A DNA stretch of 64,000 bases from Pseudomonas nicosulfuronedens (GTDB lineage Bacteria > Pseudomonadota > Gammaproteobacteria > Pseudomonadales > Pseudomonadaceae), in contig NZ_SWDV01000013.1 of NCBI RefSeq assembly GCF_005877905.1, forward strand, positions 1 to 64,000, read 5' to 3'. Shown in pieces: positions 77 through 17,785 of the stretch; the stretch's first letter is position 1; the number at the start of each line of letters is the position of its first letter. The translations under genes and the position numbers were made by a program. The notes below the pieces were generated by a model that searched no databases, was not told the DNA's origin, and saw only the letters and a list, made by a program, of their open reading frames with translations.

Positions 77-1432
77 TCAGCGTATGCCCTGGTTCCTCAG
101 CGCCGTCGGGGTGTAGTCGACGCTGCTGGCCCTGAAGCCGAACTCCACCTGGGACTTCTCCTGATTGGTCAGGCCGGATACGAGGTAACGGCCATTGATC
201 AGGTCGTAGATCGCTTCCACGCCCAGCCAGGGAATCTGCTTGTCGTACAGCGGCGTCATGAAGCTTTCGCCCACGCGCCAGAGGGTGCCGCGGCCGTCGT
301 AGTGGTCGGCGAGCACGGCCTGCCAGGTATCCTCGTCGAGGAACAGCACGCGGCGGGCATAGATGTGCCGCTCGCCAGCGCGCAGGGTGCCCTCGACTTC
401 CCAGACGCGGTGTTTCTCGTAGCGCACCAGCTCCTGGTTGAGATGGCCGGGTTTGACCAGGTCGTCATAGCGGTGGGCGGTGGAGTCGAGGGTGAAGCTG
501 TTGTACGGCACATAGATTTCCTTCTTGCCCAGCAGCTTCCAGTCGTAGCGGTCCGGCGCGCCGTTGAACATGTCCAGGTTGTCCGCCACGCGCAGGCCGT
601 CGGAGGCCGGGTAGGGGCCGTCGTAGGCGATCTGCGGGGCACGGCGTACGCGACGTTGGCCGGCGTTGTAGACCCAGGCCATGCGCGGCTCGCGGACCTG
701 GTCTAGGGTCTCGTGGACCAGCACGACGTCGCCTGCCAGGCGCGCCGGTGCGGTGACCAGTTGCTTGTAGTAGAAAAGGACGTTGTTGTCCTTGTCCGGG
801 CTGTAGTCGGTGAGCTGGTCGCGGTAGCTGAACTGCTGTTGGAAGTAGGTCGGCGTGTAGGTGCCGTTGGCGGTGGGTGTCGCCTGCACGTGCAGGCGCT
901 GGGCGCTGCCACCGCGATAGCGGGTGATGTGGTTCCACAGCGCCTCGACGCCGCTCTGCGGAATGGGGAAGGGAATCGCTGTCTGGAAGTCCTTCAGGCC
1001 GTTGCCGCCTTCGACCAGGCTGGCATGCCGCGCATTGGCGGCCACGGCCTGCAATACGGCGGCCGGGTAGGTCGCCGAGCGGTGCGCGGGGTACACGTTG
1101 AGGTGGTAGTCGGGGTAGCGCTGCAGCATCGCCTGCTGGCCGGGCGTGAGGTTCGCCGCGTACTGCGCCATGTTCTGCGCGGTGATGGTGAACAGCGGCT
1201 TGTCGGCAGCGAAAGGATCGCTCAGGCGGCCGTCGGCGCCGCGGCTGCCCGCATTGGCTGGCAGGCCGCCGTCCCAGGCAGGAATGCTGCCGTCGGCGTT
1301 GCCGGCGCGCTCCGCGCCCAGGGGCGTAAGGACGTTGCCCAGTTTCGCCGCTTCCGCTTCGGGAACGGCGGCCTGGAGGTTGAAAGGCAGGGCCAGGAAC
1401 AGCAGTGAAGCGCACGCAAGTTTCTTGTTCAT
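77..1432 (-). CDS. DUF1329 family envelope protein (copy 1)
   Basis: This 451-residue protein begins with a Sec signal peptide (MNKK, then a hydrophobic stretch ending LQAA) and is predicted to be periplasmic or outer-membrane associated. It matches DUF1329 throughout, including PFPIPQSGVEALWNHITRY, the GQRRVRRAP block and NGAPDRYDW. I chose the ATG at 1432 over an upstream in-frame start because it has the signal peptide and a GGAG ribosome site. It lies 13 nt after the DUF1302 gene, the usual pairing. The family is uncharacterised biochemically, is related to LolA/LolB-type folds and is often found beside genes for hydrophobic substrates. A role in moving the pathway substrate across the envelope is inferred. 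A paralogue lies at 36207-37577. Confidence 0.9.
   Translation of the reverse strand: MNKKLACASLLFLALPFNLQAAVPEAEAAKLGNVLTPLGAERAGNADGSIPAWDGGLPANAGSRGADGRLSDPFAADKPLFTITAQNMAQYAANLTPGQQAMLQRYPDYHLNVYPAHRSATYPAAVLQAVAANARHASLVEGGNGLKDFQTAIPFPIPQSGVEALWNHITRYRGGSAQRLHVQATPTANGTYTPTYFQQQFSYRDQLTDYSPDKDNNVLFYYKQLVTAPARLAGDVVLVHETLDQVREPRMAWVYNAGQRRVRRAPQIAYDGPYPASDGLRVADNLDMFNGAPDRYDWKLLGKKEIYVPYNSFTLDSTAHRYDDLVKPGHLNQELVRYEKHRVWEVEGTLRAGERHIYARRVLFLDEDTWQAVLADHYDGRGTLWRVGESFMTPLYDKQIPWLGVEAIYDLINGRYLVSGLTNQEKSQVEFGFRASSVDYTPTALRNQGIR
1422..1429 (-). promoter_or_regulatory. CA motif (possible Hfq/Crc target) in DUF1329 codons 2-4
   Basis: The sense strand reads AACAAGAA directly after the ATG, matching the AANAANAA pattern bound by Hfq with Crc in Pseudomonas. 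It also encodes Asn-Lys-Lys, common at the start of signal peptides, so it is weaker evidence than the 5'-leader copies. Confidence 0.35.
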
Positions 1433-1445
1433 GGGGTTTCTCCGC

Positions 1446-3296
1446 TTAGAACGACACGCCAAGGCTCAGGGCAAGGAAGTCCCGGTCGGTATTCACGTTG
1501 TACTTACCGCCGAAGAAGTTGGTGTAGGAAAGGCTCAGGTTGTAGGTGTTGAGGTAGGTGGTATCGACGCCGACGCTGATCGCTCGCGCGCCCTGGTTGA
1601 AGCCCGGCTCCGGGGCGTAGCCGTGGACGTCGTGGGACCAGGCCAGGTTGGGCCGTACCGTGGCGCCGTCGATGAGGTCGGCGTACTCCCAGATCGCCCG
1701 CGTCTGGTAGCCCCAGGCGGTGCTGGTGACGAAGCCCGAGTCGTTGCAGTACTGCGGCGTGACGCTGTTGCCGGTGCACAGGCTGTTGTCGGGGTAAAGC
1801 GCGCCCTGGCCGAACACCGGGCTGCGGCCGTAGCGCAGCTCGTCGTCGCCGCCCAGGCCGCCGACATGGGTGACGCCGATCTCGCCGATCAGGGTCAGGC
1901 GGTCGGCGCCCATCACCTGGTCGAAGAAGTGCGTGGCGGTGATCTGTGCCTGGGTCACTTCCTTGCGCCGATAGCCCTTGAGCGTCGCGTCGTTGGCCGG
2001 TGCCGGAGCATCGCCGTAGACCGGTGTGAGCGCAGGGATGCCCAGGGTCGCGGTGACCAGATCGACCGGGTTGATCTGTACCGGCATGTTCGGCCGGTAG
2101 CTGATCTCGCCGGCCAGGGTAGTGCCGGTGGGCAGGCTGGTGCTGAAGCTCAGGCCGTAGAGCTGGATGTCCTCGGGGTAGTCGGCAAAGTACTGGGCGC
2201 TGCCCAGCCGGTAGGCCTGGGTCAGCTGTTGGCCGGCACTGCTGCCGATCACCGCGCCGCAGAGGGCGTCGGGTATGCCGAGGTTGCCGCACAGCTGCGG
2301 CGCGAAACCCAGGTCGGCGGCATGCGGGCCGCTGCGCACGCTGAGGTAGGGCTGGCGGCTGTGGTAGTTGATGAAGTAGCCGGCGAACTCGCTGTCCAGC
2401 TCCGGGGCGAACCAGCGCAATGCGGCACCCCACTGGCCGTCGTCGCGCGCTTCGCGGTCCTTGCCACGGGGGATGACGATGCCCTCGTCGGTCAGGTTGA
2501 TCCCGGCCGGTGCCAGGGCCTGGACCGCCAGCGGGTTCTGGTCGATCACCGGGCCGGCCGCCAGGCCGTTGCAGCCGTCGGCCATCACGTCGGTGGTGGA
2601 GAAGAAGGTGCCGCAGTTATCGATCACCGTCTTCTGCCATTCCAGCTGGTAGAAGGCCTCGGCGGACAGGTGCTCGCTGAAGTTCTGCGACACGTAGAAC
2701 ATGTTGACCGGGATCAGCCCTTCCTTGATCTCCGAGCCGGGCCGGCGGAACGCCGCGACGTCGATCGGGTTGATGGCGTTGATGCCGCCCTGGATGAAGG
2801 TGCTCTCGCCCCAGCTCACCACCTGCTTGCCCAGGCGCACGGTGCCGGGCAGGTCGCCGATGCTGTAGTTGTGGTACAGGAAGGCATCGAGGAACTCCGC
2901 GCCGGAGGCCTTGGCGCCTTCCTCGCGGCCGTGGTCGTCGATGTCCTTGAAGTGCAGGTGCTCGTCCTTGAGCTTGAAGTCGTACCAGTACTTGCCACGG
3001 ACGAAGGCACCGGAGTCGCCGTACTTGAGCTCCAGGTCGTGGATGCCCTTGAACACCTTGGAGAAGGTGTCGCCCTCGCGGAAGTTGCGCTTGCCGTCGT
3101 CGGAGCTGTGGCTGTGCAGCAGGCCGGCGTCGGCGTTGCGCATGGCCCAGCTGGCGCCGACCGACAGGCTGGAGTCGAACTGCCCCTCGATCTCGCCGAG
3201 GGAGAAGGTGAAGGCCTGCGCGCCGTCGCCGTAAAGGGCCAGTCCGATGGCGGCGGGAAGTGCGAGCAGGTGCAAGGCGGGTGATCTGCGGTTCAT
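1446..3296 (-). CDS. DUF1302 family outer-membrane protein (copy 1)
   Basis: This 616-residue protein has a signal peptide ending near GAQA (about residue 28), a body of alternating short strands and loops, and a C-terminal phenylalanine (SLGVSF), all typical of an outer-membrane beta-barrel. The body matches DUF1302, including GKQVVSWGESTFIQGGINAI and the RRPGSEIKEGLIPVNMFY region. The ATG at 3296 gives a good signal peptide. It is translated just before its DUF1329 partner. Substrate and direction of transport cannot be read from sequence; import of a hydrophobic aromatic or terpenoid is inferred from the catabolic neighbours. Confidence 0.9.
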   Translation of the reverse strand: MNRRSPALHLLALPAAIGLALYGDGAQAFTFSLGEIEGQFDSSLSVGASWAMRNADAGLLHSHSSDDGKRNFREGDTFSKVFKGIHDLELKYGDSGAFVRGKYWYDFKLKDEHLHFKDIDDHGREEGAKASGAEFLDAFLYHNYSIGDLPGTVRLGKQVVSWGESTFIQGGINAINPIDVAAFRRPGSEIKEGLIPVNMFYVSQNFSEHLSAEAFYQLEWQKTVIDNCGTFFSTTDVMADGCNGLAAGPVIDQNPLAVQALAPAGINLTDEGIVIPRGKDREARDDGQWGAALRWFAPELDSEFAGYFINYHSRQPYLSVRSGPHAADLGFAPQLCGNLGIPDALCGAVIGSSAGQQLTQAYRLGSAQYFADYPEDIQLYGLSFSTSLPTGTTLAGEISYRPNMPVQINPVDLVTATLGIPALTPVYGDAPAPANDATLKGYRRKEVTQAQITATHFFDQVMGADRLTLIGEIGVTHVGGLGGDDELRYGRSPVFGQGALYPDNSLCTGNSVTPQYCNDSGFVTSTAWGYQTRAIWEYADLIDGATVRPNLAWSHDVHGYAPEPGFNQGARAISVGVDTTYLNTYNLSLSYTNFFGGKYNVNTDRDFLALSLGVSF

Positions 3297-3309
3297 CTGA
3301 AACGACCTC

Positions 3310-3410: not shown

Positions 3411-4427
3411 CTAGAGGCTCAGGTCGAGGGCGTCCTCCCCGAGCGTGATCTCGCCCGAATACTCATCGGCCATGCCGCTGACGAACATCCGCCGGGCGAG
3501 GAGGTTGTCCGGAGCGGGAATCAGGTGGGTGAGCACCAGGTGGCGCACGCCGGCGCGCTGGGCCAGGCGTGCCAGCTCCAGGGTGTCGGCGTGGTAGTCG
3601 AGCACGCGCACGGCCTGCGCGCCGCGATCCTTCTGCCCGGTGCGTTCGAGCGCGGCGGCGCCCTCGCGGACCAGGTGGGCGTTGATCGCCTCATGCACCA
3701 CCAGGTCGGCATCGCGCATGGCTTCGAGATAACGCTCGCTGACGCGGGTGTCGCCGCTGATGAACAGCTTCCTGCCCTGGTAGCGCAGCACGTAGCCGTA
3801 GGCCGGCTCCACCGGGTGGTGGTCGACGCGGTAGGCATCGATGGTCACGCCGCCCTGGTCATAGACGCGCACCGATTCCTGTCCCTGGGCGATTTCAACC
3901 CGGCGAGGTTTGGCGAACGCCAGCTGCTTGTCGGTCGGAGGCAGGGCATGGGCGCTGCGGTAGCCGGCGTCCTGGGCGTAGACCATGGCCAGTCCCTCGA
4001 CGACCTGTTCGACACCGGGTGGGCCATAGACCAGGAAGGGCGTCTGCCGGCCGTAGATCCAGCTATGGTTGATCAGCGCGCCCAGGCCGTTGAAATGGTC
4101 GGAGTGCCAGTGGGTGATGAACACCTGGTTCAGCGCCTGCATCGGGACGTGGCTGGTCTCCAGGTTGCGCATGGCGTTTTCGCCGGCATCGAAGAGAAAC
4201 AGCCGGCCGCCGGCCGCCACCAGAGTGCAGGCCTGGCCGCGGGTCGCGTTGACCTGCGGCGTACCGGTACCGCAGAGGATGACGCGAATGGCGTTGCCGC
4301 CCTGGATCAGGGACTGGTCGGTGTGGTCCTTGACCATCGCGTCCAGGGCCGCGTGCTGGATGCGTTCGCAGCCGGGGAGTGCGAGGACGAGCAGCAGGGC
4401 AAGGGCTCGGGGCAGTCGGGGTCGCAT
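3411..4427 (-). CDS. MBL-fold metal-dependent hydrolase, predicted lipoprotein
   Basis: This 338-residue protein belongs to the metallo-beta-lactamase superfamily and most resembles the RNase Z/arylsulfatase-like branch. The zinc motif THWHSDH is at residues 105-111, with later ligand candidates in the FISGDTR segment and the VLTHLIP segment. The N-terminus is hydrophobic with a lipobox LPGC (Cys20), so it is predicted to be lipid-anchored in the periplasm. It sits between the DUF1302 and acyl-CoA synthetase genes. It may hydrolyse an ester, lactone or sulfate before uptake, but that is inference. The ATG at 4427 is preceded by GAAGGAAG. Confidence 0.85.
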   Translation of the reverse strand: MRPRLPRALALLLVLALPGCERIQHAALDAMVKDHTDQSLIQGGNAIRVILCGTGTPQVNATRGQACTLVAAGGRLFLFDAGENAMRNLETSHVPMQALNQVFITHWHSDHFNGLGALINHSWIYGRQTPFLVYGPPGVEQVVEGLAMVYAQDAGYRSAHALPPTDKQLAFAKPRRVEIAQGQESVRVYDQGGVTIDAYRVDHHPVEPAYGYVLRYQGRKLFISGDTRVSERYLEAMRDADLVVHEAINAHLVREGAAALERTGQKDRGAQAVRVLDYHADTLELARLAQRAGVRHLVLTHLIPAPDNLLARRMFVSGMADEYSGEITLGEDALDLSL

Positions 4428-4442
4428 GGCACTTCCTTCATC

Positions 4443-4478: not shown

Positions 4479-6380
4479 TCAGCCGTGCCAGTCCACCGCG
4501 AAGCTGTAGCGGCCCAGCGCGCGGGCCAGTTCATCGCGCCCGGAGCCGGCGCGAACCTGCGCCACCAGCCCGCGACGGGCGTCCTGCACCACCTCCACGG
4601 TGATGCCGGCGAGGCCCTGGTTGTCCGCTTCCTGGTGGATCACCCGGGCGATCTCGCGTTGCTGCAGCGCGGGCTTGAAGATCTTGCCCACCGGCGTCAC
4701 CGGCAGGGCGTCGAGAATCTCGATGCGCTTGGGCACCGCGGCGCGTTCGCTGATCCGCTGGTTGGCGAAGTCCAGCAGCGCGGCAGTGTTGGCACGCTGA
4801 CCGGCGGCGAGCTGCACATAGGCCACGGGAATCTCGCCGGCATGCGGATCGGGGCTGCCTACCGCTGCCACAAGCGCTACTGCCGGGTGGGCCTGCAGCG
4901 CCTCCTCGATCTGCTTCGGATCGATGTTGTGGCCACCGCGGATGATCAGCTCCTTCTTGCGCCCGGTGAGCCAGAAGTAGCCCTGGGCGTCCTGCCGCCC
5001 GAGGTCGCCGGTGTTCAGCCAGCGCTGCCCGCCGATGTCGATCCAGAGGCCCCTGTTGTGGCTGGCCTCGAGGTAGCCGAGGAAGACGTTCGGGCCGTGG
5101 ATGGCGATCACCCCGACTTCGTCGGCTTCGGCGTCGCGCAGGTAGTCGCCGTGGTCGTCGAGAATCACCGCGCGCATACCCTGGTAGGCCAGGCGCAGGC
5201 CGATGGAGCCAATCGGGCGCTCGCCGTCGGGCGGGTTGCTCGACGAGACGCAGGCGCCTTCGGTCAGTCCGTAGCCTTCGAGGATGCGCACACCGACCAC
5301 GCGTTCGAACTCGCGGAACAGCTCCACCGGCATCGGCGCGGCGCCACACAATGCGTACTGCAGGCTGGACAGGTCATGGTGGGCGACAGGTTGCTGCAGG
5401 AGCGCCGAATAGACGGTCGGCACGCCGGAGAAGAAGTTGATGCCGAAGTGCTGGACCATTGCCCAGAAGGCCGGGATGACCCCTTCGCCGCGATAGCCCT
5501 GGGGCGTGCCGATGATTACCCGGTCACCATGGGTCCAGGGCATCAGCCCGGTCACCAGCTGGCCGTTGACGTGGAACAGCGGCAGCCCGCAGAAGATCAC
5601 CTGGCCGCTCTGGCGCGGCTGCAGGTTGGCGGCCATGGCCCAGGCGTTGAAGACTTCCGAGCCGTGGCTGCGCTTGGCGATCTTCGGCAGACCGGTGGTG
5701 CCGCCGGTGCAGAAGTAGGAAGAGGCCTCCTCCGCGCGGATCACGCGGCCGCTGCTGAGCTGCTTGCCATTCTCGCGGCGCATCAGGTGGCGCAGGTCGT
5801 GGATGCGCAGACGCGGGTGGCGCCCGCGTTCTCGTCGGGCCATCCAGCGCACCGCCAGGGATGCCACAGTACCGATGTAAGGCGCCATGCTCACCCAGAG
5901 CACGTCGCGCACGCTGGGCAGGCTGTCGAGCTGGCTGACCAGCTTGGGCCACAGGTCGCTGCCGGGTGTCGGCGCCAGGGTCACCACCAGCCGGGCATTG
6001 GCGGCGCGCAGCAGGTCGCCGATCTGCGCGGCTTCCAGCAGCGGGTTGATCGCCAGGACGATGCCCGCGGCTTCACCGCCCCAGATGACGAAATGGGTTT
6101 CCGGCAGGTTCGGCAGGAGGAAGGCGACCACGTCCTTCGGGCCGATACCGAGCCGGTGGAAGGCGTTGGCGGCACGGGTGATGTCGGCGAACAGCTCGGC
6201 GTAGGTCCAGTCGTGGGTACGGCGGAAGTTGCTGGCTTCGAGGAAGAAGCTCAGCGCCGTCGCCTGGCCGTGCTGCACGGCGCAGCGACGCAGGGCCTCG
6301 TAGGTGCTGGCGGGCAGTTCGCGGCGGGCCAGCGGGACGCTTTCCAGCGCCTGGATGTCGGCGAGGGTCTGCACGGCCAT
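4479..6380 (-). CDS. AMP-dependent acyl-CoA synthetase/ligase
   Basis: This 633-residue ANL-superfamily enzyme would activate a carboxylic acid with ATP and CoA. The adenylation P-loop CTGGTTGLPK is at residues 224-233, YGLTEG at 370-375, the TGD motif near 457 and the hinge segment GRKKELIIRGG near 473-483, followed by a C-terminal domain with PVGKIFKP that carries the catalytic lysine. A longer in-frame ORF extends upstream, but the ATG at 6380 shares one base with the stop of the hydrolase gene (TGATG), which suggests translational coupling. The substrate is probably a ring-cleavage product or aromatic acid; feruloyl- or fatty-acid activity cannot be excluded. Confidence 0.92.
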   Translation of the reverse strand: MAVQTLADIQALESVPLARRELPASTYEALRRCAVQHGQATALSFFLEASNFRRTHDWTYAELFADITRAANAFHRLGIGPKDVVAFLLPNLPETHFVIWGGEAAGIVLAINPLLEAAQIGDLLRAANARLVVTLAPTPGSDLWPKLVSQLDSLPSVRDVLWVSMAPYIGTVASLAVRWMARRERGRHPRLRIHDLRHLMRRENGKQLSSGRVIRAEEASSYFCTGGTTGLPKIAKRSHGSEVFNAWAMAANLQPRQSGQVIFCGLPLFHVNGQLVTGLMPWTHGDRVIIGTPQGYRGEGVIPAFWAMVQHFGINFFSGVPTVYSALLQQPVAHHDLSSLQYALCGAAPMPVELFREFERVVGVRILEGYGLTEGACVSSSNPPDGERPIGSIGLRLAYQGMRAVILDDHGDYLRDAEADEVGVIAIHGPNVFLGYLEASHNRGLWIDIGGQRWLNTGDLGRQDAQGYFWLTGRKKELIIRGGHNIDPKQIEEALQAHPAVALVAAVGSPDPHAGEIPVAYVQLAAGQRANTAALLDFANQRISERAAVPKRIEILDALPVTPVGKIFKPALQQREIARVIHQEADNQGLAGITVEVVQDARRGLVAQVRAGSGRDELARALGRYSFAVDWHG

Positions 6381-7333
6381 CAGGCTTGCTCCACCACGCG
6401 GTTGCGCTGCACGCCCAGGTCGATCACGCCGTCGGCGCTGCGGATGCTCGCCTCGACCAGGTCGCCGGCCTTGAGGTACTGGCTGCGCCCCGCCTGCGTC
6501 TTGAGGAAGGCTTTCCACTTGATGTGCTCGGGCAGCAGTGCGGCGATGCGCTGCTTGGCCGGTGAGGGGACCGACAGCGCACAGCCTGCCGGCGTGCCGG
6601 TGGCGATCAGGTCGCCGGCGACGAAATCCTGCACGCCGGACAGCTCGCTCAGGGTCTCCGCCGGGCCGTGCACCAGGTTGGCGGTGCTGTCGCTCTGGCG
6701 TACTTCACCGTTGACCGTCAGACGCAGCTGCAGCTCCTTCAGGTAGCGCATGTCGTTCTTCTGCAACAGACACAGGTAGGGGCCGACCGGGCCGAAGGTG
6801 CGGAAGCTCTTGCCCTTGTAGAACTGCATCTGCGGGATCTGGATGTCGCGCGCCGAATAGTCGTTGACGATCACCACGCCGGCGATGAACTCATGCAGGT
6901 TGGCGTCGGTCACCGCCACCTTGCCGGTGATGTCGCGGCGCAGCACCAGGCCCAGTTCGATCTCGTAGTCGAGGAAGCGTACCTGGCGCGGTTTGATCAG
7001 GTCGCTGTCGGCGGCGACGATGCAGCTCTGTGCCTTGGTGAAGATCATGTTGAAGTGCTTGGCGTCCGGGTCCATGCCCGACTCGATCATGTGCTGGCGG
7101 TAGTTAGCGCCCTGGCAGACAAACTGCTGGTCGCGGGTGATCGGCGAGAGCAGCTTCACCGAGTCCAACGCCAATTCATCCCCGTGCACGTTCGTGAGTT
7201 CCTCGACCTCAACCTGGCGGATCAGCTCCCCGGTGCTGGCGTAGCGGCCGGGCAGGGGGCTGATGCGCCCCTGGCGCAGCACGCCCCAGCGGGTTTCGTT
7301 CTGGTGTTCGAAGCGGACTACGTGCACGGGCAT
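6380..7333 (-). CDS. Fumarylacetoacetate hydrolase family protein
   Basis: This 317-residue protein has the FAH catalytic fold from about residue 70 to the end. Metal ligands are visible as Glu124 and Glu126 (DYEIELG) and Asp158 (NDYSARD), with the conserved FYKGKSFRTFGPVGP segment following. Family members hydrolyse C-C bonds of acylpyruvates, tautomerise or decarboxylate meta-cleavage products, or hydrate dienoates. Sitting just downstream of an extradiol dioxygenase gene, it probably processes the ring-fission product. The ATG at 7333 has AGGAG upstream. The stop overlaps the next start by one base. Confidence 0.9.
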   Translation of the reverse strand: MPVHVVRFEHQNETRWGVLRQGRISPLPGRYASTGELIRQVEVEELTNVHGDELALDSVKLLSPITRDQQFVCQGANYRQHMIESGMDPDAKHFNMIFTKAQSCIVAADSDLIKPRQVRFLDYEIELGLVLRRDITGKVAVTDANLHEFIAGVVIVNDYSARDIQIPQMQFYKGKSFRTFGPVGPYLCLLQKNDMRYLKELQLRLTVNGEVRQSDSTANLVHGPAETLSELSGVQDFVAGDLIATGTPAGCALSVPSPAKQRIAALLPEHIKWKAFLKTQAGRSQYLKAGDLVEASIRSADGVIDLGVQRNRVVEQA

Positions 7334-8591: not shown

Positions 8592-9206
8592 TCAGTCTGC
8601 GGGTGGCAGCATCGGCAGCTCACCGGTGGACAGGCTGCGTGCTTCCTCCGGCGCCACGCCGAGCGCGCGCAGGGTCAGTTCCGCTGCGTCGCTGCCGGCC
8701 TGACGCCAGGCCCGGTGGCCCTCCAGGACCAGGAACATGGAGCTGAGCACGGCGCCGGCGATCATCGAGATCGCCGACGGCAGCTGCTCCTGGCGGAAGC
8801 TGTAGCGGCCGTTGGCGAGCCCGCTGAGCAGATCGGCGGTGGGTGGGCCGAACCACATCCCGCGCAGTGATTCGTCGCTCATCGAGAAGCGGCTGATGAA
8901 GGCGCCCCAGTGCGGCTCCTCGTGGGCCCGGCGGATGAAGAAACGGATGCCGTTGGCCAGGCGCAGGGCCGGGTCCGAGGTCTCGCCGAAGCTCTTCACC
9001 ACGCGCTGGTGCATTTCTGCCGCCAGGTGGCTGGCCACGTGCTGGAAGAGGTCGTCGATGGATTGCAGGTTGTTGTAGATGGTGCCCCGTGCCACACCGG
9101 CTTCCTGGGCGAGGTCGCTGATGTTCACCTGGCTGGCGCCTTTCTCGGCGAACAGGCGCAGGGCGGCCTGGTGGATGCGGCGTTGTACGGGGTTGAGGGT
9201 TTCCAT
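8592..9206 (-). CDS. TetR/AcrR family regulator of the catabolic island
   Basis: This 204-residue protein has an N-terminal TetR helix-turn-helix (about residues 8-55, with ISDLAQEAGVARGTIYNNL as the recognition region) and a divergent C-terminal ligand domain. It lies between the two divergent halves of the island. Two closely similar palindromes with TTGAAC/GTTCAA arms flank the 260-bp gap upstream, one over its own promoter and one over that of the hydroxylase operon. Autoregulation and control of the divergent operon are therefore likely. The inducer is probably a pathway intermediate, which is inference. Confidence 0.92.
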   Translation of the reverse strand: METLNPVQRRIHQAALRLFAEKGASQVNISDLAQEAGVARGTIYNNLQSIDDLFQHVASHLAAEMHQRVVKSFGETSDPALRLANGIRFFIRRAHEEPHWGAFISRFSMSDESLRGMWFGPPTADLLSGLANGRYSFRQEQLPSAISMIAGAVLSSMFLVLEGHRAWRQAGSDAAELTLRALGVAPEEARSLSTGELPMLPPAD

Positions 9207-9238: not shown

Positions 9239-9267
9239 ATTGAACACGTGCGTTCAAAATAAGTCAA
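9239..9267 (-). promoter_or_regulatory. tetR-side promoter with TetR operator O1
   Basis: On the minus strand a -35 TTGACT (9262-9267) is followed after 17 nt by TTCAAT (9239-9244). The 18-bp operator TTGAACACGTGCGTTCAA (9240-9257) fills the spacer and overlaps the -10. A near-copy lies at 9418-9435. Confidence 0.7.
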
Positions 9268-9408: not shown

Positions 9409-9438
9409 TTGACTGAATTGAACACTGGTGTTCAAAAT
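9409..9438 (+). promoter_or_regulatory. Hydroxylase-operon promoter with TetR operator O2
   Basis: A -35 TTGACT (9409-9414) is followed by an 18-nt spacer and CAAAAT (9433-9438). The operator TTGAACACTGGTGTTCAA (9418-9435) is a palindrome apart from its two central bases and lies between the two hexamers. O1 and O2 share the six outer bases of each arm, plus a trailing AATAA. Confidence 0.7.
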
Positions 9439-9469
9439 AATTCGGCGATGTCTTCCCCTGGAGCAAGCA

Positions 9470-11095: not shown

Positions 11096-12738
11096 TCGAC
11101 ACCCCCGTTCTCATCAGCGGCGCCGGCCCGGTCGGCCTGACCCTGGCGCTGAACCTCAGTCGCCTGGGGATTCGCTCTGTGCTGCTCAACGATCGTCGGC
11201 AGACCACCACGCACCCAAAGCTGGACGTGGTGAACTGCCGCTCGATGGAAATCTTCCGCCAGCTGGGCCTCGCCGAGCGTATCCGCGCGGCGGGCAACCC
11301 GGTCGATGCCAACCAGTATTCGGCGATGGCGGCTTCGGCCAGCGGGCCGTTCTACAGCGTGATGTCCGATCGTCACCTGATCTACCAGCCGGTCAGCCAG
11401 GCCGAGCAGGCCATCCGCGCCTGCCGCGACGGCAGCCTGCCATTGGAGTCGATGCAGCGCATCGCGCAGATGCACCTGGAGCCGGTGCTGATGGCCGAGG
11501 TGGAAGCCGACCCGAACATCGAATTGCGCATGGGCTGGCGCCTGTATGGCTTCGAGCAGAGTTCCACCGGCGTGGTGGCGATGGCCCATGAAGTGGATAG
11601 CGGCGAAGCGCAGCAGTTCTTCGCCCAGTACCTGATAGGCTGCGACGGGCCCAACAGCCGCGTGCGCAACTTCCTCAATATCGATTACGACGGCACCCGC
11701 GACCTGGTTGGCGAGCTGTTCATCATCCACCTGCGCTCCGACGAGATCGCCAGGCTGTTCCCGGACAACCAGCCCTACTGGCACACCTGGCTGACCCGGC
11801 CGGGTTTCGCCGGCCTGCTGGTGTCGCCCGATGCCAGCCGCAACGACTACGTGCTGCACCGGCCCTTTGCGCCGCGTCCCGGCGAGTCGCTGGAAAGCGT
11901 GGTGGACGCCGCCCTCGGTACCCGGCTTAGCTACGAGATCGTCCAGTCTGGCCCCTGGCGCCCGCAGTTCCTGGTGGCCCGCTCGTTCGGCCGGCAGCGG
12001 GTGTTCATCGCCGGCGATGCCACCCACCAGTTCATGCCTACCGGCGGGCTGGGGATGAACACCGGGGTCGCCGAGGCGCACAACCTGGCCTGGAAGCTCG
12101 CCGCCTGCCTGGCCGGCTGGGGCGGACCGCGGCTGCTGGAAAGCTACGAAGCGGAGCGCCTGCCCGTGGCCCGGCGCAACCGCGACCACGTGAAGAAATG
12201 CGCGGCGGCGACCTTCGAGGCGCAGATGCGTCGCGACGATGGGCTGCTCGCCCAGGGAGCAGCCGGTGAGGCGGCGCGCGAGGCCGCCGGGCGCGAGTTC
12301 GAGCGCAAGGTTTCGCGGCTCTACGAGTCGCTGGGTGTGGAAATCGGCTACCGCTACCACGGCTCGCCGGCGATCGAGGCGGACACCGCCAGCGAGCCGG
12401 CGTATGAGGAAATTCGCTACACGCCCACCACCTGGTCCGGCGCGCGCCTGCCCAGCGCTTTCCGCGAGGATGGCACGGCGCTCTTCGATCAGCTTGTACT
12501 GGGTGGCTACACCCTGCTGGCATTCGACACCGATGCCGAGGCCTGCGCACCACTGCAGGAGGCGGCGCAGGAGTGCGGCGTACCGCTGAACGTGCTGCCG
12601 ATCCACGAGAAGTACCTGGCGACCCTCTACGAGCGGCGCTTCGTGCTGGTTCGGCCTGACCAACATGTGTGCTGGCGCGGCGACAGCCTGCCGGTCGATT
12701 GCTATTCGCTGTTCAACCGTCTGCGCGGAGCCCGCTGA
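11092..12738 (+). CDS. FAD-dependent monooxygenase, phenol hydroxylase-like (2)
   Basis: This 548-residue group A flavoprotein has GAGPVG at residues 10-15 and AGDATHQFMPTGGLGMNTG later in the FAD domain. It has a C-terminal extension like the first hydroxylase but is clearly divergent in sequence. It starts in an ATGA overlap with the first hydroxylase, so the two are translationally coupled. Two consecutive flavin hydroxylases suggest two ring hydroxylations, or hydroxylation before and after side-chain removal. The substrate is not identifiable from sequence. Confidence 0.92.
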   Translation: MIDTPVLISGAGPVGLTLALNLSRLGIRSVLLNDRRQTTTHPKLDVVNCRSMEIFRQLGLAERIRAAGNPVDANQYSAMAASASGPFYSVMSDRHLIYQPVSQAEQAIRACRDGSLPLESMQRIAQMHLEPVLMAEVEADPNIELRMGWRLYGFEQSSTGVVAMAHEVDSGEAQQFFAQYLIGCDGPNSRVRNFLNIDYDGTRDLVGELFIIHLRSDEIARLFPDNQPYWHTWLTRPGFAGLLVSPDASRNDYVLHRPFAPRPGESLESVVDAALGTRLSYEIVQSGPWRPQFLVARSFGRQRVFIAGDATHQFMPTGGLGMNTGVAEAHNLAWKLAACLAGWGGPRLLESYEAERLPVARRNRDHVKKCAAATFEAQMRRDDGLLAQGAAGEAAREAAGREFERKVSRLYESLGVEIGYRYHGSPAIEADTASEPAYEEIRYTPTTWSGARLPSAFREDGTALFDQLVLGGYTLLAFDTDAEACAPLQEAAQECGVPLNVLPIHEKYLATLYERRFVLVRPDQHVCWRGDSLPVDCYSLFNRLRGAR

Positions 12739-12740: not shown

Positions 12741-13121
12741 ATGAGCCTGTTCATCGATTCGCTGAAACTGCGCCTGCTCCTGCTGGCCTCCATCCCGCTG
12801 CTGCGCCGGGCGGAACGACGCTCGGCGCGCCTGCGCGAACTGCTCCACGAGGACTCGTTCGTGCTGCAGATTCGCACCACCGATGGGGTCGGCGGTTATT
12901 ACCAGCTGCGTGGCGGAGTGCTCAGCCTGCATCGTGGCGAACACCGCCGGCCGGACTTCATCCAGCACTGGCAACGCAGTGCGGATGCGCTGCGGGTGAT
13001 GCTCAGTCGCGACGAAACCGACATGCTGCGCGCCGTCGAAAGCGGGCAGTGCCAGCTGCAGGGGCGCTTCGCGGTGGCCCTGTGGTTCAACGAAGCCATG
13101 AAGATCGCCCGGGCGGCCTAG
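12741..13121 (+). CDS. Small SCP2-like protein
   Basis: This 126-residue protein starts 2 nt after the second monooxygenase stop. After a hydrophobic and basic N-terminal helix (residues 1-30), the pattern VLQIRTTDGVGGYYQLRGG, a central tryptophan-containing helix and a C-terminal GRFAVALWFNEAMKIARAA segment resemble the sterol-carrier-protein-2 fold, which binds hydrophobic ligands. I recognise the fold by pattern only. A role as a substrate or lipid carrier for the flanking monooxygenases is inferred. An in-frame upstream ATG would overlap the preceding gene and is less likely. Confidence 0.75.
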   Translation: MSLFIDSLKLRLLLLASIPLLRRAERRSARLRELLHEDSFVLQIRTTDGVGGYYQLRGGVLSLHRGEHRRPDFIQHWQRSADALRVMLSRDETDMLRAVESGQCQLQGRFAVALWFNEAMKIARAA

Positions 13122-13151: not shown

Positions 13152-14225
13152 ATGACGATCCAACAAGGTCGAATCGACGTGCACCACCACATCATCCCGC
13201 CGGCCTTCGTCGAGGTTATGGCGAACAAGGGCCTGGATAGGGTCGCCGGTGCGCCGCTGCCGAAATGGTCGCCTCAGAAGTCCATCGAGGTGATGGACCT
13301 CAACGGCATCCAGACGGCCATTACCTCGCTGTCGGCGCCGGGCGTGCACTTCGGCGGGGGAGTGGAGCAGGCCCGCGAGCTGGCGATGCGCTGCAACGAC
13401 TTCGCCGCGCAGATGCGTAGTGATCATCCGGGGCGCTTCGGCAACTTCGCCGTGCTGCCCACCCCCTTCACCGAAGCTGCCTGCCGCGAGGCCATCCGTG
13501 CCCTGGATGAACTCAAGGCCGAAGGCGTGGTACTGCTGGGCAGTACCGATGGCGTGTTCCTGGGTGATGAGTGTTTCGACGAACTGATGGCCGAACTGGA
13601 CCGCCGCGCGGCCATCGTCTTCGTCCACCCGAACATGCACGAAAGCAGCGAGAAACTCGGCATCGCCGCGCCGGGATTCCTGGTCGAGTTTCTCTGCGAC
13701 ACCACCCGCGCGGCGGTGAACCTGATCCTCACCGGCACGCTGGAGAAGTACCCGCGCATCCGCTGGATCCTCGCCCACGGTGGCGGTTTCCTGCCCTACG
13801 TGGCCTGGCGCGTGTCCTTGGCCAACGCCCTGCCGCAGTTCCAGGACAAGGCCCCGCAAGGGGTGATGACCTACCTCAGGCGCTTCTACTTCGACACGGC
13901 GCTGTCGCCGTCGCGTTACTCCATGGCGGCGCTCAAGGAACTGGTGGAGCCCTCGCAGATTCTCTTCGGCAGCGACTTCCCCTTCGCCCCGGCGCCGGTC
14001 ACGACCTTGTCCTGCCAGACGCTGGAGCAGAACACCCTGTGGTCGGACACGCAGCGCTACGGGATCAACCGTGGCCACGCGCTGAGCCTGTTCCCGCAGT
14101 ACCGGGACGCCCGCGAGCAGGTGGTGCCCGCGCCGATCCACAGCGGCGAGTCGTTCGCCAGCCGGATCAAACGCAGCCTCACCCGCCCTCTCGGCGCCTA
14201 TGTCGAGCGCGTGCGCAGCCGTTGA
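13152..14225 (+). CDS. Amidohydrolase-family decarboxylase (ACMSD/gamma-resorcylate decarboxylase type)
   Basis: This 357-residue protein belongs to the amidohydrolase superfamily. The metal motif DVHHHIIPP is near residues 9-17, a further conserved WILAHGGGFLPY is near 200, and LFGSDFPFAP near 275 supplies the catalytic aspartate. The pattern fits the non-hydrolytic decarboxylase branch (aminocarboxymuconate-semialdehyde, 6-methylsalicylate or 2,6-dihydroxybenzoate decarboxylases). It probably removes a ring carboxylate. AAGGA precedes the ATG, and a partial CA motif (ACAACAAG) lies next to it. Confidence 0.88.
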   Translation: MTIQQGRIDVHHHIIPPAFVEVMANKGLDRVAGAPLPKWSPQKSIEVMDLNGIQTAITSLSAPGVHFGGGVEQARELAMRCNDFAAQMRSDHPGRFGNFAVLPTPFTEAACREAIRALDELKAEGVVLLGSTDGVFLGDECFDELMAELDRRAAIVFVHPNMHESSEKLGIAAPGFLVEFLCDTTRAAVNLILTGTLEKYPRIRWILAHGGGFLPYVAWRVSLANALPQFQDKAPQGVMTYLRRFYFDTALSPSRYSMAALKELVEPSQILFGSDFPFAPAPVTTLSCQTLEQNTLWSDTQRYGINRGHALSLFPQYRDAREQVVPAPIHSGESFASRIKRSLTRPLGAYVERVRSR

Positions 14226-14255: not shown

Positions 14256-15485
14256 ATGAGCACTCTGTTCGAACCATTGCGCCTGCCCAACGGGCAGGTG
14301 ATCCGCAACCGCATCGCCAAGGCGGCGATGGAAGAGAACCTTGCCGATGCCGACCACGCCCCTGGCGATACCTTGCTGCGCCTCTACCAGCGTTGGGCTG
14401 AAGGCGGCGCCGGGCTGATCATCACCGGTAACGTGATGGTCGATCGCCGCGCTCTGACCGGCCCGGCCGGGGTGGTGCTGGAGGACGACGGCCGGCTGCC
14501 GCGTTTCCGTCGTTGGGCCGAGGTCTGTCGCAGCCAGGGCGCGCAGGCCTGGATGCAGATCAATCACCCCGGTCGCCAACTGATGGCCGATCTCGGCCAA
14601 CCTGCCCTGGGGCCTTCGGCCATCGCCGTGGATATTCCCGGTCTGAAGAACGTCTTCGCCCAGCCGCGAGCGTTGTCCGGCGCGGAAATCGACGGGCTGA
14701 TCCAGCGCTACCTGAACGCCGCCGTGCTGGCTGAGCGTGCCGGTTTCACCGGCGTACAGGTGCACGCTGCGCACGGCTATCTGTTCAGTCAGTTCCTCTC
14801 GCCGCTGAGCAACCGGCGCGACGATGACTGGGGCGGCAGCCTGGAGAATCGCGCACGCATCCTGTTGCGTACGGTGGAGGTGATCCGCGAGCGCGTGGCG
14901 CCGGACTTCTGCGTGGCGGTGAAGCTCAATTCCGCCGACTTCCAGCGTGGCGGTTTCGCGGCGGAGGATGCCGAAGCCGTGGTGCGCCTGCTCAACGAGC
15001 GGGGCGTGGACCTGGTCGAGCTGTCCGGTGGCAGCTATGAAAGCCCGGCGATGCAGGGCCAGACCCGCGACGGCAGCACGCTGGCGCGGGAGGCCTACTT
15101 CCTCGAATTTGCCGAACGCATCGCCGCGACCGCGCGCATGCCGCTGATGGTCACTGGCGGCATTCGCCGGCGTGAGGTCGCCGAGCGCGCGTTGCAGGGG
15201 CCGGTGGCGATGATCGGCATGGCCACGGCGCTGGCGGTCGATCCGACGCTGCCACGGCGCTGGCAGGCGGGCGAGGGTGCGCAGGTCGAGCCGATAGTCG
15301 TGGCCTGGAAGAACAAAGCCTTCGCCGCGGTGGCGACCCAGTCGGTGGTGAAGAAGCAACTGACGCTGCTCAGCGAGGGACGCCCGACCAATCCTCGCAC
15401 GTCGCCGCTGCTGGCGCTGATCGGCAATCAGCTGAAGCTGCGCAGGCTGTCGCGTCGCTACCGGCGCTGGGTCGCGCAGGCCTGA
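14256..15485 (+). CDS. NADH:flavin oxidoreductase, Old Yellow Enzyme family
   Basis: This 409-residue FMN-dependent TIM-barrel enzyme has the active-site block VHAAHGYLFSQFLSPLSN and the phosphate-binding TGGIRRREVAE near the C-terminus. It belongs to the FadH/2,4-dienoyl-CoA reductase side of the family but lacks the extra Fe-S and FAD domains, which makes it a short form. In this operon it could reduce an unsaturated ring or ring-fission intermediate. It is the last gene of the plus-strand operon and converges with the second tetR only 7 nt away. Confidence 0.9.
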   Translation: MSTLFEPLRLPNGQVIRNRIAKAAMEENLADADHAPGDTLLRLYQRWAEGGAGLIITGNVMVDRRALTGPAGVVLEDDGRLPRFRRWAEVCRSQGAQAWMQINHPGRQLMADLGQPALGPSAIAVDIPGLKNVFAQPRALSGAEIDGLIQRYLNAAVLAERAGFTGVQVHAAHGYLFSQFLSPLSNRRDDDWGGSLENRARILLRTVEVIRERVAPDFCVAVKLNSADFQRGGFAAEDAEAVVRLLNERGVDLVELSGGSYESPAMQGQTRDGSTLAREAYFLEFAERIAATARMPLMVTGGIRRREVAERALQGPVAMIGMATALAVDPTLPRRWQAGEGAQVEPIVVAWKNKAFAAVATQSVVKKQLTLLSEGRPTNPRTSPLLALIGNQLKLRRLSRRYRRWVAQA

Positions 15486-15492
15486 TGGGCGT

Positions 15493-16149
15493 TCAGTCGC
15501 CCTGCGGCAAGGGCAGGGCGGCTATCTTCGCGGCCTTGGCGGGCGTGGCGCCGAGGGCGCGAAGGATCATCTCGCCGAGCAGGATGTCCTGGCCCTCCGG
15601 CGCCCGGCCCTCGAGGCTGGCGCGGATGGCACCGGTGGCGCAGGCGATCACCAGGTCCAGGGCAATGTCTTCATTGGCATAGCTGAACACGCCCTCGGCC
15701 AGCCCGCCGCGCAGGTCCTCGCGAACGTGGTTGGCCAGCGTCGAGTGCATGGCCTGGTCGTAGTGGATCACCCGCAACAGCGCACTGGCCCACTGCGGGT
15801 CGGACTGCGCTTGCAGGACGAACATGCGTACCCCGATGGCCAGTCGCCGGGAACCGCTGGAAATACCGGAGCTGAGCTGGCTGATGGTCTCGGAGAAGTC
15901 GCTGGCCAGTGAGATGCCCACGGCCTCGGCCAGCTCCTCCCGCGTCTTGAAGTAGTTGTAGATAGTGCCGGTGGAGACCTGCGCCTCGGCGGCCAGGTCC
16001 TGGAACACCGTGGCCGCGATGTCCTGCCGGGCAAACACCCGCAGCGCCGCATCGAGCAGCCCCTGGCGGGTGCGTGCGCGCTTCTTGTGGCCGCGGGTGA
16101 GCGGTTCGCTGTCGTCTTCGCGGGGCTGGCGGTCGGTCATGGCGGTCAT
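15493..16149 (-). CDS. TetR/AcrR family regulator (second module)
   Basis: This protein of about 218 residues has a TetR helix-turn-helix at about residues 25-75 (VFQDLAAEAQVSTGTIYNYF). I start it at the ATG at 16149 (MTAMTDR); the ATG at 16140 is equally possible because neither has a strong ribosome site. The ORF is open well upstream but would run into the monooxygenase. It follows the hydroxylase by 55 nt in the same direction, so both probably share one transcript, and it likely binds the palindrome in the promoter at 17841-17868. Confidence 0.88.
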   Translation of the reverse strand: MTAMTDRQPREDDSEPLTRGHKKRARTRQGLLDAALRVFARQDIAATVFQDLAAEAQVSTGTIYNYFKTREELAEAVGISLASDFSETISQLSSGISSGSRRLAIGVRMFVLQAQSDPQWASALLRVIHYDQAMHSTLANHVREDLRGGLAEGVFSYANEDIALDLVIACATGAIRASLEGRAPEGQDILLGEMILRALGATPAKAAKIAALPLPQGD

Positions 16150-16204
16150 TCGTCTGCGGAGCTGCGGCGATGATACGGGAAGCCCATGGCCGACCGGTAC
16201 CCGC

Positions 16205-17785
16205 TCATGCCCGCAGCAGCGCCTGACAATGGCGCAGCAGGTCGGCGGCCTGTTCGGGCCTGCCCTGGTGCATGATGATGCGGTCAGGGCGCACCACGGC
16301 CAGCGTCGGGGCAGGCCAGGGCGCCAGCAACGAGCCGTCGAGGGTTTCGGCGAGATCGGCGCGGCTGTCGTCGCGGGCATGGCCGATCTGCAGGAAGCTG
16401 CCGCCCAGTTCCAGCCATTGCTGCTGTTGCGCAGCGTCGAGCCAGCGGCGCGGGTCGGTGCCCAGGCCGACCAGTTGCAGGCGGTCGCCGAGCAACTGGT
16501 CGCTCAGGCAGATGCGCCCGGCATTGCGTACCCAGGCCTGGGGGAACAGCCCGCCGCTGGCCAGCCGCGCACGCCGCGCGCTGCGCACGAACAGGCCGCA
16601 GCGGAAGCGGTGCTTGGGCTTGATGTCCAGCTCCTCGAAGTGCCGTCGTGCTGCCGGGATCAGTCGCAGCGTTTTCATCAGGCCGTGGATCAGTGTTGCC
16701 GCCAGCGCATTGCCGGGCATGACCAGGCGACCCATGAGCTTGGCCAGGTCGATCATCTCCCGTGCGTGGGGCCGGCGCTCCTGATCGTAGCTGTCGAGTA
16801 TCTGCGGTTTGGCGCGGCCCTGCAGGACCCAGGAGAGCTTCCAGGCCAGGTTCGCGACGTCGCGCAAACCGGCCACCAACCCCTGGCCGACGAAGGGCGG
16901 GGTAATGTGCGCGGCGTCGCCGACGAGGAATACCCGTCCCTGCTGGAAGCGCTCGCAGCAGCGGGCGTGGAAGCGATAGACCGCCCGGCGCTCGATCGTC
17001 AGCTGCTGCGGCTCGATCCAGGGTGCGAGCAGGGCGCGGATGCGGTCCTGGTCTTCCATCTCGTCGCGGGTTTCGCCGGGGCGGAGCATGAACTCCCAGC
17101 GCTCGCGGCCACCGGGGGCGGGCATGTGCGGCGTCGGTCGGCGGTGGTCGCAGAGGAATTCGACGTGGTCGATGGCCTTCCCCTGGCGGGATCCGGCATC
17201 GACGATCAGCCAGTCCTCCGAGTAGCTCTGGCCGTTGAACTCCTGGCCGATCAACCCGCGCACCCGCGAACTCGCGCCGTCCGCGCCGACCAGATAGCGA
17301 CAGCGTATCGGGTGCTGTACGCCGGCTTCATCGACCAGGGTGGCGGTGACGCCGCCGCCGTCCTGGGTGAAGTCCTTCAGCTCCAGGCCTCCCAGGCAGC
17401 GCAGGTTTGCATAGTGCCGGGCCTGCCGGCGCATCGCCTGTTCGAGATCCGGTTGATAGAAGGTCACCAGTTTGTGGTGGCCATCGATGCGGCCACTGGT
17501 GTTGGCCTGACCGAACTGGCCGACGATGGGGCAGTGCATCTTCACCTGGGGGATGACCACGGTTTCGAACGCGTCTTCCTCCAGACCGGCGAGCTGGAGG
17601 ATGCGCAGCGCTTCATTGTCCAGGGCAATGGCGCGCGGCATGGGCAGGATGTCGTGGGCCTTGTCGATCACCAGGGCGTCCACGCCATAGCGTCCCAGCA
17701 GGGAAGCCAGCGTCGCGCCGACCGGGCCATTGCCGATCACCAGGACATCGACCGATTCGGGGAGGAGCTCATTGTTGTTATGCAT
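16205..17785 (-). CDS. MhpA-like FAD-dependent aromatic hydroxylase (3)
   Basis: This 526-residue group A flavin monooxygenase has GNGPVG at residues 18-23 and VGDAAHITPPFVGQG as the second FAD motif. It resembles 3-(3-hydroxyphenyl)propionate hydroxylase but differs from the other two flavin hydroxylases of the island. It would add a hydroxyl to a phenolic ring using NAD(P)H. It forms a two-gene unit with its own TetR regulator. The ATG at 17785 has a GGGGGAGA-like site just upstream (read on the minus strand), and codons 3-5 hold a CA motif. Confidence 0.9.
   Translation of the reverse strand: MHNNNELLPESVDVLVIGNGPVGATLASLLGRYGVDALVIDKAHDILPMPRAIALDNEALRILQLAGLEEDAFETVVIPQVKMHCPIVGQFGQANTSGRIDGHHKLVTFYQPDLEQAMRRQARHYANLRCLGGLELKDFTQDGGGVTATLVDEAGVQHPIRCRYLVGADGASSRVRGLIGQEFNGQSYSEDWLIVDAGSRQGKAIDHVEFLCDHRRPTPHMPAPGGRERWEFMLRPGETRDEMEDQDRIRALLAPWIEPQQLTIERRAVYRFHARCCERFQQGRVFLVGDAAHITPPFVGQGLVAGLRDVANLAWKLSWVLQGRAKPQILDSYDQERRPHAREMIDLAKLMGRLVMPGNALAATLIHGLMKTLRLIPAARRHFEELDIKPKHRFRCGLFVRSARRARLASGGLFPQAWVRNAGRICLSDQLLGDRLQLVGLGTDPRRWLDAAQQQQWLELGGSFLQIGHARDDSRADLAETLDGSLLAPWPAPTLAVVRPDRIIMHQGRPEQAADLLRHCQALLRA
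17772..17779 (-). promoter_or_regulatory. CA motif in codons 3-5 of the third hydroxylase
   Basis: The sense strand reads ATGCATAACAACAATGAG, so AACAACAA lies 7 nt from the start codon. This is a plausible Hfq/Crc site. Confidence 0.5.

Follow-up and report, generated by a model that had tools for sequence, protein, structure and literature searches.

A TetR-regulated gene cluster of Pseudomonas nicosulfuronedens possibly dedicated to resorcinol-type phenols with a hydrophobic side chain

We analyzed a window of 64,000 nucleotides from Pseudomonas nicosulfuronedens (contig NZ_SWDV01000013.1, positions 1 to 64,000). It contains a gene cluster that a preliminary description, made from the sequence, had presented as an aromatic catabolic island with envelope uptake genes. 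The genes named there occupy positions 77-17785, some with corrected starts, and form two divergent operons around a repressor gene, TetR1, plus a separate FMO3-TetR2 unit. On the minus strand, TetR1 (8592-9206; Pfam TetR_N and TetR_C_40) is the first gene of a row that continues with a type I extradiol dioxygenase carrying a cationic amphipathic C-terminal tail (EDO, 7409-8512), an FAA-family hydrolase (FAH, 6380-7333; Pfam E 3.8e-47), and a PRK07529-type acyl-CoA synthetase (ACS, 4479-6380; NCBIfam 937 bits against a cut-off of 632, scored on the longer open reading frame 4479-6518). The row ends with an MBL-fold hydrolase with an apparent lipoprotein signal peptide (3411-4427; Pfam Lactamase_B_2, lipobox recognized by eye), a DUF1302 protein that is a putative outer-membrane channel (1446-3296; Pfam E 2.3e-172), and a DUF1329 protein, its putative periplasmic partner (77-1432; Pfam E 3.9e-152, with a weak LolA-like match). 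Spacings in this row range from a 1-base overlap to 114 bases.

On the plus strand, the row is tighter (4-base overlap to 30 bases) and encodes an MhpA-type flavin hydroxylase (FMO1, 9470-11095; Pfam FAD_binding_3 E 3.2e-62 on the longer frame 9428-11095), a RebC-like flavin hydroxylase (FMO2, 11092-12738; PDB 4eip E 7e-66 and 2r0c E 1.3e-65), a lipid-carrier-like protein with a predicted SCP2 fold (SCP, 12741-13121), an amidohydrolase-2 family decarboxylase candidate resembling gamma-resorcylate decarboxylase and ACMSD (AMH, 13152-14225; Pfam Amidohydro_2 E 3.6e-27), and an Old Yellow Enzyme-family reductase with a cationic C-terminal tail (OYE, 14256-15485; Pfam). Beyond it, on the minus strand, lie a second repressor gene, TetR2 (15493-16149; Pfam TetR, start corrected), and a further MhpA-type flavin hydroxylase (FMO3, 16205-17785; Pfam FAD_binding_3 and NCBIfam). 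FMO3 is about 7.7 kb from EDO, with TetR1, FMO1, FMO2, SCP, AMH, OYE, and TetR2 intervening.

The gene families and the divergent layout given in the preliminary description are real. Pfam supports DUF1329, DUF1302, the MBL fold, AMP-binding, FAA hydrolase, VOC/extradiol dioxygenase, Amidohydro_2, OYE, two TetR proteins (TetR_C_40), and three FAD_binding_3 proteins; SCP2 is the sole named family that Pfam does not support, and its fold was recognized via a predicted model. NCBIfam models score above cut-off only for ACS (PRK07529), FMO1 and FMO3 (PRK06183.1-3), and FMO2 (PRK06126). The corrected starts of DUF1329, ACS, SCP, and TetR2 come from a gene caller trained on the same genes and are thus a consistency check only; for FMO1 the caller chose 9539, and the ATG at 9470 was taken from reading the sequence. 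The window begins at the first base of the contig, which puts the left end of the cluster out of view. Mean base composition does not mark the cluster as a foreign island, since G+C content is 67.1% in the cluster and 65.3% in the remaining window.

A scan of one genome per species identified 178 stretches encoding an EDO relative, and the best 80 of these were compared, each with up to 10 kb on either side. They are mostly from Pseudomonas, with others from Paraburkholderia, Ralstonia, Solimonas, Alcanivorax, and metagenome-assembled genomes. Genes were called by script with per-locus training, and some may be missed near contig ends or in genomes of odd composition; FadL, OmpW, and the large molybdopterin subunit described below (MoL) were assigned by Pfam from one representative each. 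All 80 loci have EDO and FAH, followed in frequency by ACS (73), TetR1 (64), FMO3 (62), TetR2 (57), FadL (42), OYE (34), DUF1302 (26), DUF1329 (23), AMH (13), MoL (10), MBL (6), FMO1 (5, one at 35% identity), and FMO2, SCP, and OmpW (4 each). EDO, FAH, and ACS occur together in 73 loci, and FMO3 was called in 58 of those. The caller missed FMO3 in loci L026 and L078, where tblastn reveals it. The conserved core is FMO3, EDO, FAH, and ACS; FMO1, FMO2, and SCP are a local add-on. Gene-order comparison, the check suggested for this cluster, therefore shows a widespread set with a conserved core and local additions rather than a one-off. Within the genus of the window, EDO is present at 73% identity or more in 13 of 25 genomes; 10 of these 13 also have SCP at 86% or more, and no SCP at that level was found in the 12 others. 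In L001 and L003, DUF1329 is likewise the final gene of the row and is followed by opposite-strand genes.

Two perfect palindromes of the form TTGAAC-N6-GTTCAA, TTGAACACGTGCGTTCAA (9240-9257) and TTGAACACTGGTGTTCAA (9418-9435), are candidate TetR1 operators, to which no strand is assigned. Both lie in the gap between TetR1 and FMO1, and they are the only two in the 64 kb. Of the 80 loci, 29 hold a total of 42 exact copies of the motif and 51 have none; one base-shuffled set has none either. Nearly all copies (39 of 42) adjoin a TetR1 gene, and the remaining three precede EDO, FadL, and DUF1302.

Further genes adjoin the core at some loci. Sulfatase genes do so in P. kuykendallii and Solimonas marina (L010:2-4400 and L072:4492-6171), perhaps for sulfated phenols. 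A large AAA_16/TPR regulator with a Trans_reg_C domain occurs in 22 loci (e.g., L056:2194-5091); it directly adjoins FMO3 in 20 of the 22, often with efflux-type genes, recognized by eye, behind it.

FAH and ACS are neighbors in 73 loci, and the pair is followed directly by FadL in 40 of them, by DUF1302 in 14, by MBL in 6, by OmpW in 4, and by another gene in 9. DUF1302 comes next after MBL in all six MBL cases, which places an outer-membrane channel-type gene (FadL, DUF1302, or OmpW) behind the pair in 64 of 73 loci, six of them via the intervening MBL. Two channel families occur together in three of the 80 loci. We suggest that the substrate is hydrophobic because three unrelated outer-membrane families fill one slot, which argues for such a compound.

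The EDO sequence has one VOC domain above the Pfam cut-off, and the predicted model (18 sequences, pLDDT 77.8) has the two-domain VOC fold. Foldseek against the PDB aligned it with extradiol dioxygenases over both domains (about 300-355 columns; 3b59 E 1.7e-21, 3lm4 E 2.2e-19, and also 1mpy). Matches include 3b59, a Novosphingobium protein deposited as a glyoxalase, the Rhodococcus 2,3-dihydroxybiphenyl dioxygenase, AphC, catechol 2,3-dioxygenase, LapB, homoprotocatechuate dioxygenase, and HsaC. Residues H180, H245, and E296, which we take to be the ligands of the His-His-Glu metal site, are invariant in 22 of 22 aligned rows. The modeled fold is that of an extradiol dioxygenase and is silent on whether a catechol or a trihydroxybenzene is cleaved. 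The C-terminal tail is equally long in all 80 proteins compared, each from a different locus. Over its final 30 residues, net charge has a median of +5 and is never below +3. The median best hydrophobic moment of the tail is 0.615, above the 95% point of random windows (0.530), and in the model the tail forms two helices (338-349 and 356-366). C-terminal charge is +6 in OYE (33 proteins) and +4 in AMH (17 proteins), compared with -1 in FAH, +1 in ACS, and 0 in FMO3. The 95% point for the C-termini of all called proteins longer than 300 aa, those just listed included, is +6, and tail charge by itself is not exceptional. The tails may nevertheless hold EDO, OYE, and AMH at the membrane.

The ring hydroxylase varies among the loci. 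FMO1 and FMO2, proposed in the preliminary description as the two hydroxylases of the pathway, were rejected as its main ring hydroxylases because they occur in so few loci. The TetR/MhpA-like module described there as adjacent contains FMO3, the conserved partner of the core. Beside the core in 10 loci we identified a molybdopterin enzyme composed of MoL (about 990 aa) and an Fe-S subunit. The representative MoL, from L077, matches pyrogallol hydroxytransferase (PDB 4v4c) with E 8e-272 over residues 138-982 and is AhtL-like by Pfam. By called genes, 2 loci have both FMO3 and MoL, 60 have FMO3 without MoL, 8 have MoL without FMO3, and 10 have neither; the last group includes L026 and L078, and also L033 and L060, which end early on that side. 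Searched genome-wide, six of the 10 genomes with MoL have an FMO3 relative of at least 57% identity, a coexistence that led us to reject full replacement of FMO3 by the molybdoenzyme. The other four, drafts whose completeness is not given (L012, L040, L070, and L077), have no FMO3 relative above 38%. A third type is found in Sphingopyxis (L115), where the hydroxylase in an FMO-EDO-FAH row is FMO2-like (37% over residues 1-547) and not FMO3-like. With FMO3, MoL, and an FMO2-like protein each represented, at least three hydroxylase types can stand with EDO and FAH. Resorcinol hydroxylase also belongs to the pyrogallol transhydroxylase-like molybdoenzyme family, and by analogy with known members, which act on polyhydroxybenzenes, the presence of MoL favors resorcinol or a similar ring. 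The molybdoenzyme genes of L012, L027, L040, and L052 have as a direct neighbor another extradiol dioxygenase-like gene (304 aa, about 37% to EDO).

The small SCP protein has no Pfam match above cut-off, including to the Pfam SCP2 model. Its AlphaFold model (17 sequences, pLDDT 89.6) matches SCP2 folds in the PDB (3bn8 E 1.8e-5; UbiJ 6h6p E 3.9e-5, TM 0.68); the SCP2-like domain of the alkylsulfatase SdsA1 and other SCP2 proteins match about as well as UbiJ. SCP is thus predicted to have an SCP2 fold. Profile comparison links it to the N-terminal domain of MoL, both directly (E 9e-7, probability 91%) and via a third family (SCP to family E 2.4e-14, family to MoL N-terminus E 3.5e-14), using shallow alignments of 9-10 rows. 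BLASTP found no match between SCP and the molybdoenzyme N-terminus even at E 100; a direct link of that kind was rejected, and the connection stands on the profile comparison. At E 0.001, SCP has at least one match in 217 of 298 Pseudomonadaceae genomes, a distant relative of about 27% identity being common in the family. Matches to L146:1713-2120, a basic-tailed SCP2-like protein of about 130 aa and a distant relative of SCP, are widespread, occurring in many of these 298 genomes.

The closest PDB relative of AMH is an uncharacterized hydrolase (2f6k, E 3e-39), followed by gamma-resorcylate decarboxylase (3.5e-22), 5-carboxyvanillate decarboxylase (3.8e-21), and ACMSD (2.4e-20). A role as resorcylate decarboxylase would explain the presence of this family.

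Distant relatives of the core were read at nine plasmid loci. The rows include FMO3-EDO-FAH-ACS-OmpW in Burkholderia multivorans, EDO-FAH-FMO followed by an acetoacetate-CoA-ligase type (Pfam ACAS_N and AMP-binding) in Streptomyces NBC_01136, FMO-EDO-ACS with FAH on the opposite strand in Microvirga, and EDO-FAH-FMO in Rhodococcus. The Sphingopyxis row (FMO2-type hydroxylase, EDO, FAH) has P450s and formaldehyde-detoxifying genes nearby and a gene for a beta-keto acid cleavage enzyme (BKACE) about 6 kb off on the other strand. Peribacillus has FMO-FAH-VOC-BKACE-MBL, in which MBL is a 27% relative; the best score of this BKACE is with 3,5-dioxohexanoate:acetyl-CoA acetone transferase, at 396 bits where the cut-off is 430. 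On an Agrobacterium plasmid, FMO3 (49%) lies opposite TetR1 (51%), ACS (57%), FAH (53%), OYE (62%), two short VOC proteins, and AMH (58%); in this distant group, too, OYE and AMH are thus linked with the core. The flavin hydroxylases of Streptomyces, Microvirga, Rhodococcus, and Peribacillus are MhpA-type proteins with no clear counterpart. The EDO relatives in L147 (Caballeronia) and in a second Streptomyces locus, L148, lack the core around them.

From these observations we propose, with a probability of about 0.45, that the cluster encodes a TetR-regulated peripheral pathway for a membrane-partitioning, resorcinol-type phenol with a hydrophobic C5 substituent, 5-alkyl(enyl)resorcinols or their alkylresorcylic forms being the best guess. 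Taken by itself, core chemistry on a resorcinol-type ring seems reasonably probable to us, and an alkyl-lipid substrate is a tentative suggestion. The substrate would pass the envelope via DUF1302 and DUF1329, and AMH would take off a ring carboxylate. FMO3 would then hydroxylate the ring to a 2,3,5-trihydroxyalkylbenzene; FMO2 or FMO1 may also act here, with SCP presenting the lipid-tailed ring. Opening by EDO would give a 2,4,6-trioxo acid, which for a long alkyl chain is R-CO-CH2-CO-CH2-CO-COOH. FAH would hydrolyze this 1,3-diketone, most likely as an acylpyruvate, to pyruvate and a beta-keto fatty acid; alternatively, cleavage could yield a fatty acid and acetylpyruvate. ACS would form the CoA ester (beta-keto-acyl or acyl) that enters beta-oxidation. 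A possible task of OYE is the reduction of quinones or enones that arise as by-products, and TetR1 may repress both divergent operons via the two operators.

The overall scheme of uptake, decarboxylation, hydroxylation, meta cleavage, hydrolysis, and CoA activation given in the preliminary description fits these genes, with a change in its hydroxylases and, probably, in its ring type. FAH, together with the acetoacetate-CoA-ligase type and BKACE in some relatives, points to a resorcinol-type ring with a 1,3-diketone product in place of a simple phenolic acid or catechol ring. Such a ring is suggested because MoL occurs in 10 loci, four of them in genomes lacking an FMO3 ortholog, because beta-keto-acid enzymes adjoin the core in some distant relatives, and because the three enzyme types of HcdABC open a resorcinol-derived ring. 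The Hcd enzymes of Pseudomonas mandelii 7HK4 comprise a flavin hydroxylase of class A (HcdA), an extradiol dioxygenase of type I (HcdB), and a member of the FAA family (HcdC) (PMC6222606). HcdA and HcdB convert 3-(2,4-dihydroxyphenyl)propionate via 3-(2,3,5-trihydroxyphenyl)propionate to 2,4-dihydroxy-6-oxonona-2,4-dienedioate, which HcdC uses up; the products succinate and 2-hydroxy-4-oxopent-2-enoate were suggested there and went undetected (PMC6222606). A beta-keto acid product would account for the CoA ligase of Pseudomonas, for the acetoacetate-type ligase that Streptomyces has, and for the BKACE found in Peribacillus and Sphingopyxis. A further reason to propose such a ring with a hydrophobic substituent is that SCP has a predicted SCP2 fold and is linked by profile to the molybdoenzyme N-terminus.

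A number of points weigh against this proposal. We infer substrate, reactions, and regulation from genes, their order, and predicted models. A 1,3-diketone substrate is not forced, as the FAA family also includes hydratases, isomerases, and decarboxylases. Chain length is a guess to which the channel families, SCP2, and the tails are the sole pointers, and the roles of FMO1, FMO2, MBL, and OYE are likewise guesses. The best fold matches of EDO include alkylcatechol and biphenyl dioxygenases and give no pointer to a trihydroxybenzene. With both enzymes present in six of the 10 genomes, the molybdoenzyme replaces FMO3 only in part, and completeness is unstated for the four genomes in which no FMO3 ortholog is seen. 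ACS was not called in 7 of the 80 loci, and none of FadL, DUF1302, and OmpW among the called genes of 11. In the distant relatives, the two short VOC proteins of Agrobacterium have no match to EDO, the Peribacillus VOC protein matches it weakly (25%, E 1e-8), and the flavin hydroxylases of Streptomyces, Rhodococcus, Microvirga, and Peribacillus are 29-35% identical to FMO1 and FMO3 alike.

Some of the same evidence could be read as an Mhp-type pathway for a 3-alkylphenol or 3-alkylcatechol (cardanol- or urushiol-like) or an arylpropionate, in which FMO3 produces a catechol, EDO cleaves it, FAH follows, and ACS activates the released acid. FMO3 and FMO1 do belong to the MhpA (PRK06183) group, EDO scores weakly with HpaD, BphC, and catechol dioxygenase models and matches catechol, alkylcatechol, and biphenyl dioxygenases in fold, and L045 has a separate Mhp-like set (FMO, BphC-type EDO, alpha/beta hydrolase, and acetaldehyde dehydrogenase) beside a TetR1 relative. 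We nonetheless consider this pathway unlikely: the core has an FAA-family enzyme where MhpC is an alpha/beta hydrolase, and the BKACE and acetoacetate-CoA-ligase-type partners and the transhydroxylase-like alternative would be unexpected for catechols. Moreover, HcdC extracts left ordinary catechol meta-cleavage products undecolorized (PMC6222606).

The same core chemistry could also serve a bulky polyphenol from plants, built on resorcinol or phloroglucinol, such as a stilbene, flavonoid, bibenzyl, or resorcylic lactone, instead of an alkyl lipid. The P450s and formaldehyde-detoxifying genes by the Sphingopyxis copy suggest methoxylated substrates, and a flavin hydroxylase is likewise paired with a VOC (glyoxalase-family) dioxygenase in the ifc cluster for isoflavones and, by similarity, in fde (PMC11069340). 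The ifc cluster also encodes an alpha/beta hydrolase and cupins (PMC11069340), neither of which was seen by Pfam among the cluster proteins scanned here; naming the cluster an fde/ifc flavonoid pathway was rejected for this reason. SCP2 and fatty-acid-type outer-membrane channels also suit lipids better, and we find a polyphenol substrate improbable. A phenolic steroid or terpenoid, for example with an estrogen A-ring, is a very remote candidate. It would be consistent with the SCP2 fold, with HsaC among the EDO fold matches, and with the core in Solimonas and Alcanivorax; against it, no steroid-ring genes were found among the cluster proteins scanned, EDO scores 32 bits with the HsaC model (cut-off 450), and FAA-type hydrolysis is not known to be part of the estrogen 4,5-seco route.

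Elsewhere in the window we identified a TwoAYGGAY RNA (Rfam RF01731; 56031-56153, plus strand; 60 bits against a gathering score of 43). Just downstream of htpG (23623-25906, plus strand), an SMI1_KNR4/SUKH-type gene and the DUF4303 gene that comes after it are a possible immunity-type pair. On the minus strand, a cytochrome c open reading frame adjoins a molybdopterin (MoCoBD) dehydrogenase frame (26855-30369).

The claim that the gene combination is undescribed holds in part. No pathway with the whole set was found in a literature search whose coverage was thin for subscription journals and nil for preprints. The core chemistry is already known from HcdABC and the methylhydroquinone/orcinol route; the variant gene set appears to be new. 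The same search found no genes for bacterial alkylresorcinol catabolism, and PMC12642758 cites a preprint on sorgoleone degradation that is possibly similar. A more ambitious, and rather doubtful, proposal is that the cluster is a genetic basis for bacterial resorcinolic-lipid catabolism in which hydroxylases of two unrelated classes, flavin (FMO2) and molybdenum (transhydroxylase-like), each recruit the same SCP2-type domain, as a separate protein in the first and fused in the second, to lift a lipid-tailed ring from the membrane, while cationic tails hold EDO, OYE, and AMH there. If true, the SCP2-hydroxylase pairing would be a catabolic counterpart of the UbiJ-assisted ubiquinone hydroxylases. 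Alkylresorcinols from cereals, cashew, and microbes are abundant antimicrobial soil chemicals, and the core, present in many soil pseudomonads and relatives, would be a marker for their catabolism. That a flavin-hydroxylase operon and a molybdenum hydroxylase have an SCP2 domain in common suggests a testable way for soluble enzymes to gain access to aromatics dissolved in membranes. Simple bench tests are possible for the SCP gene, for the operators, and for the FMO3 core.

The cluster and its relatives can be set beside several known systems. The cluster resembles MhpABC, for 3-(3-hydroxyphenyl)propionate, in that FMO3 and FMO1 fall in the MhpA group, but it has an FAA-family hydrolase and a VOC-type EDO and no alpha/beta-fold C-C hydrolase; MhpC is such a hydrolase, and MhpB is the dioxygenase of that pathway. 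MoL of the relatives aligns with the pyrogallol hydroxytransferase AhtLS from residue 138 onward; it differs in its extra N-terminal SCP2-like domain and in adjoining aerobic extradiol genes, and it is absent from this window. UbiJ, whose SCP2 domain serves ubiquinone synthesis, works with flavin hydroxylases on lipid-tailed rings; SCP is predicted to share its fold, at 16% identity, and lies in a catabolic neighborhood. The methylhydroquinone (Mhq) pathway, for which the available text lists trihydroxytoluene and 2,4,6-trioxoheptanoate and cites Chapman and Ribbons 1976 for orcinol (PMC8571283), supplies the analogy for the trihydroxyalkylbenzene and 2,4,6-trioxo acid proposed here. Compared by description, it has a one-carbon side chain, and that text names no CoA ligase or lipid uptake. 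HcdABC, of the 3-(2,4-dihydroxyphenyl)propionate/7-hydroxycoumarin pathway, consists of three contiguous same-strand genes, and its description, in the part available, names no ACS, outer-membrane channel, SCP2, AMH, or TetR (PMC6222606). As this layout differs, we rejected naming the cluster HcdABC and compared the two by enzyme type: both combine a flavin hydroxylase with an extradiol dioxygenase of type I and a protein of the FAA family, which in the Hcd pathway act on a resorcinol-derived ring.

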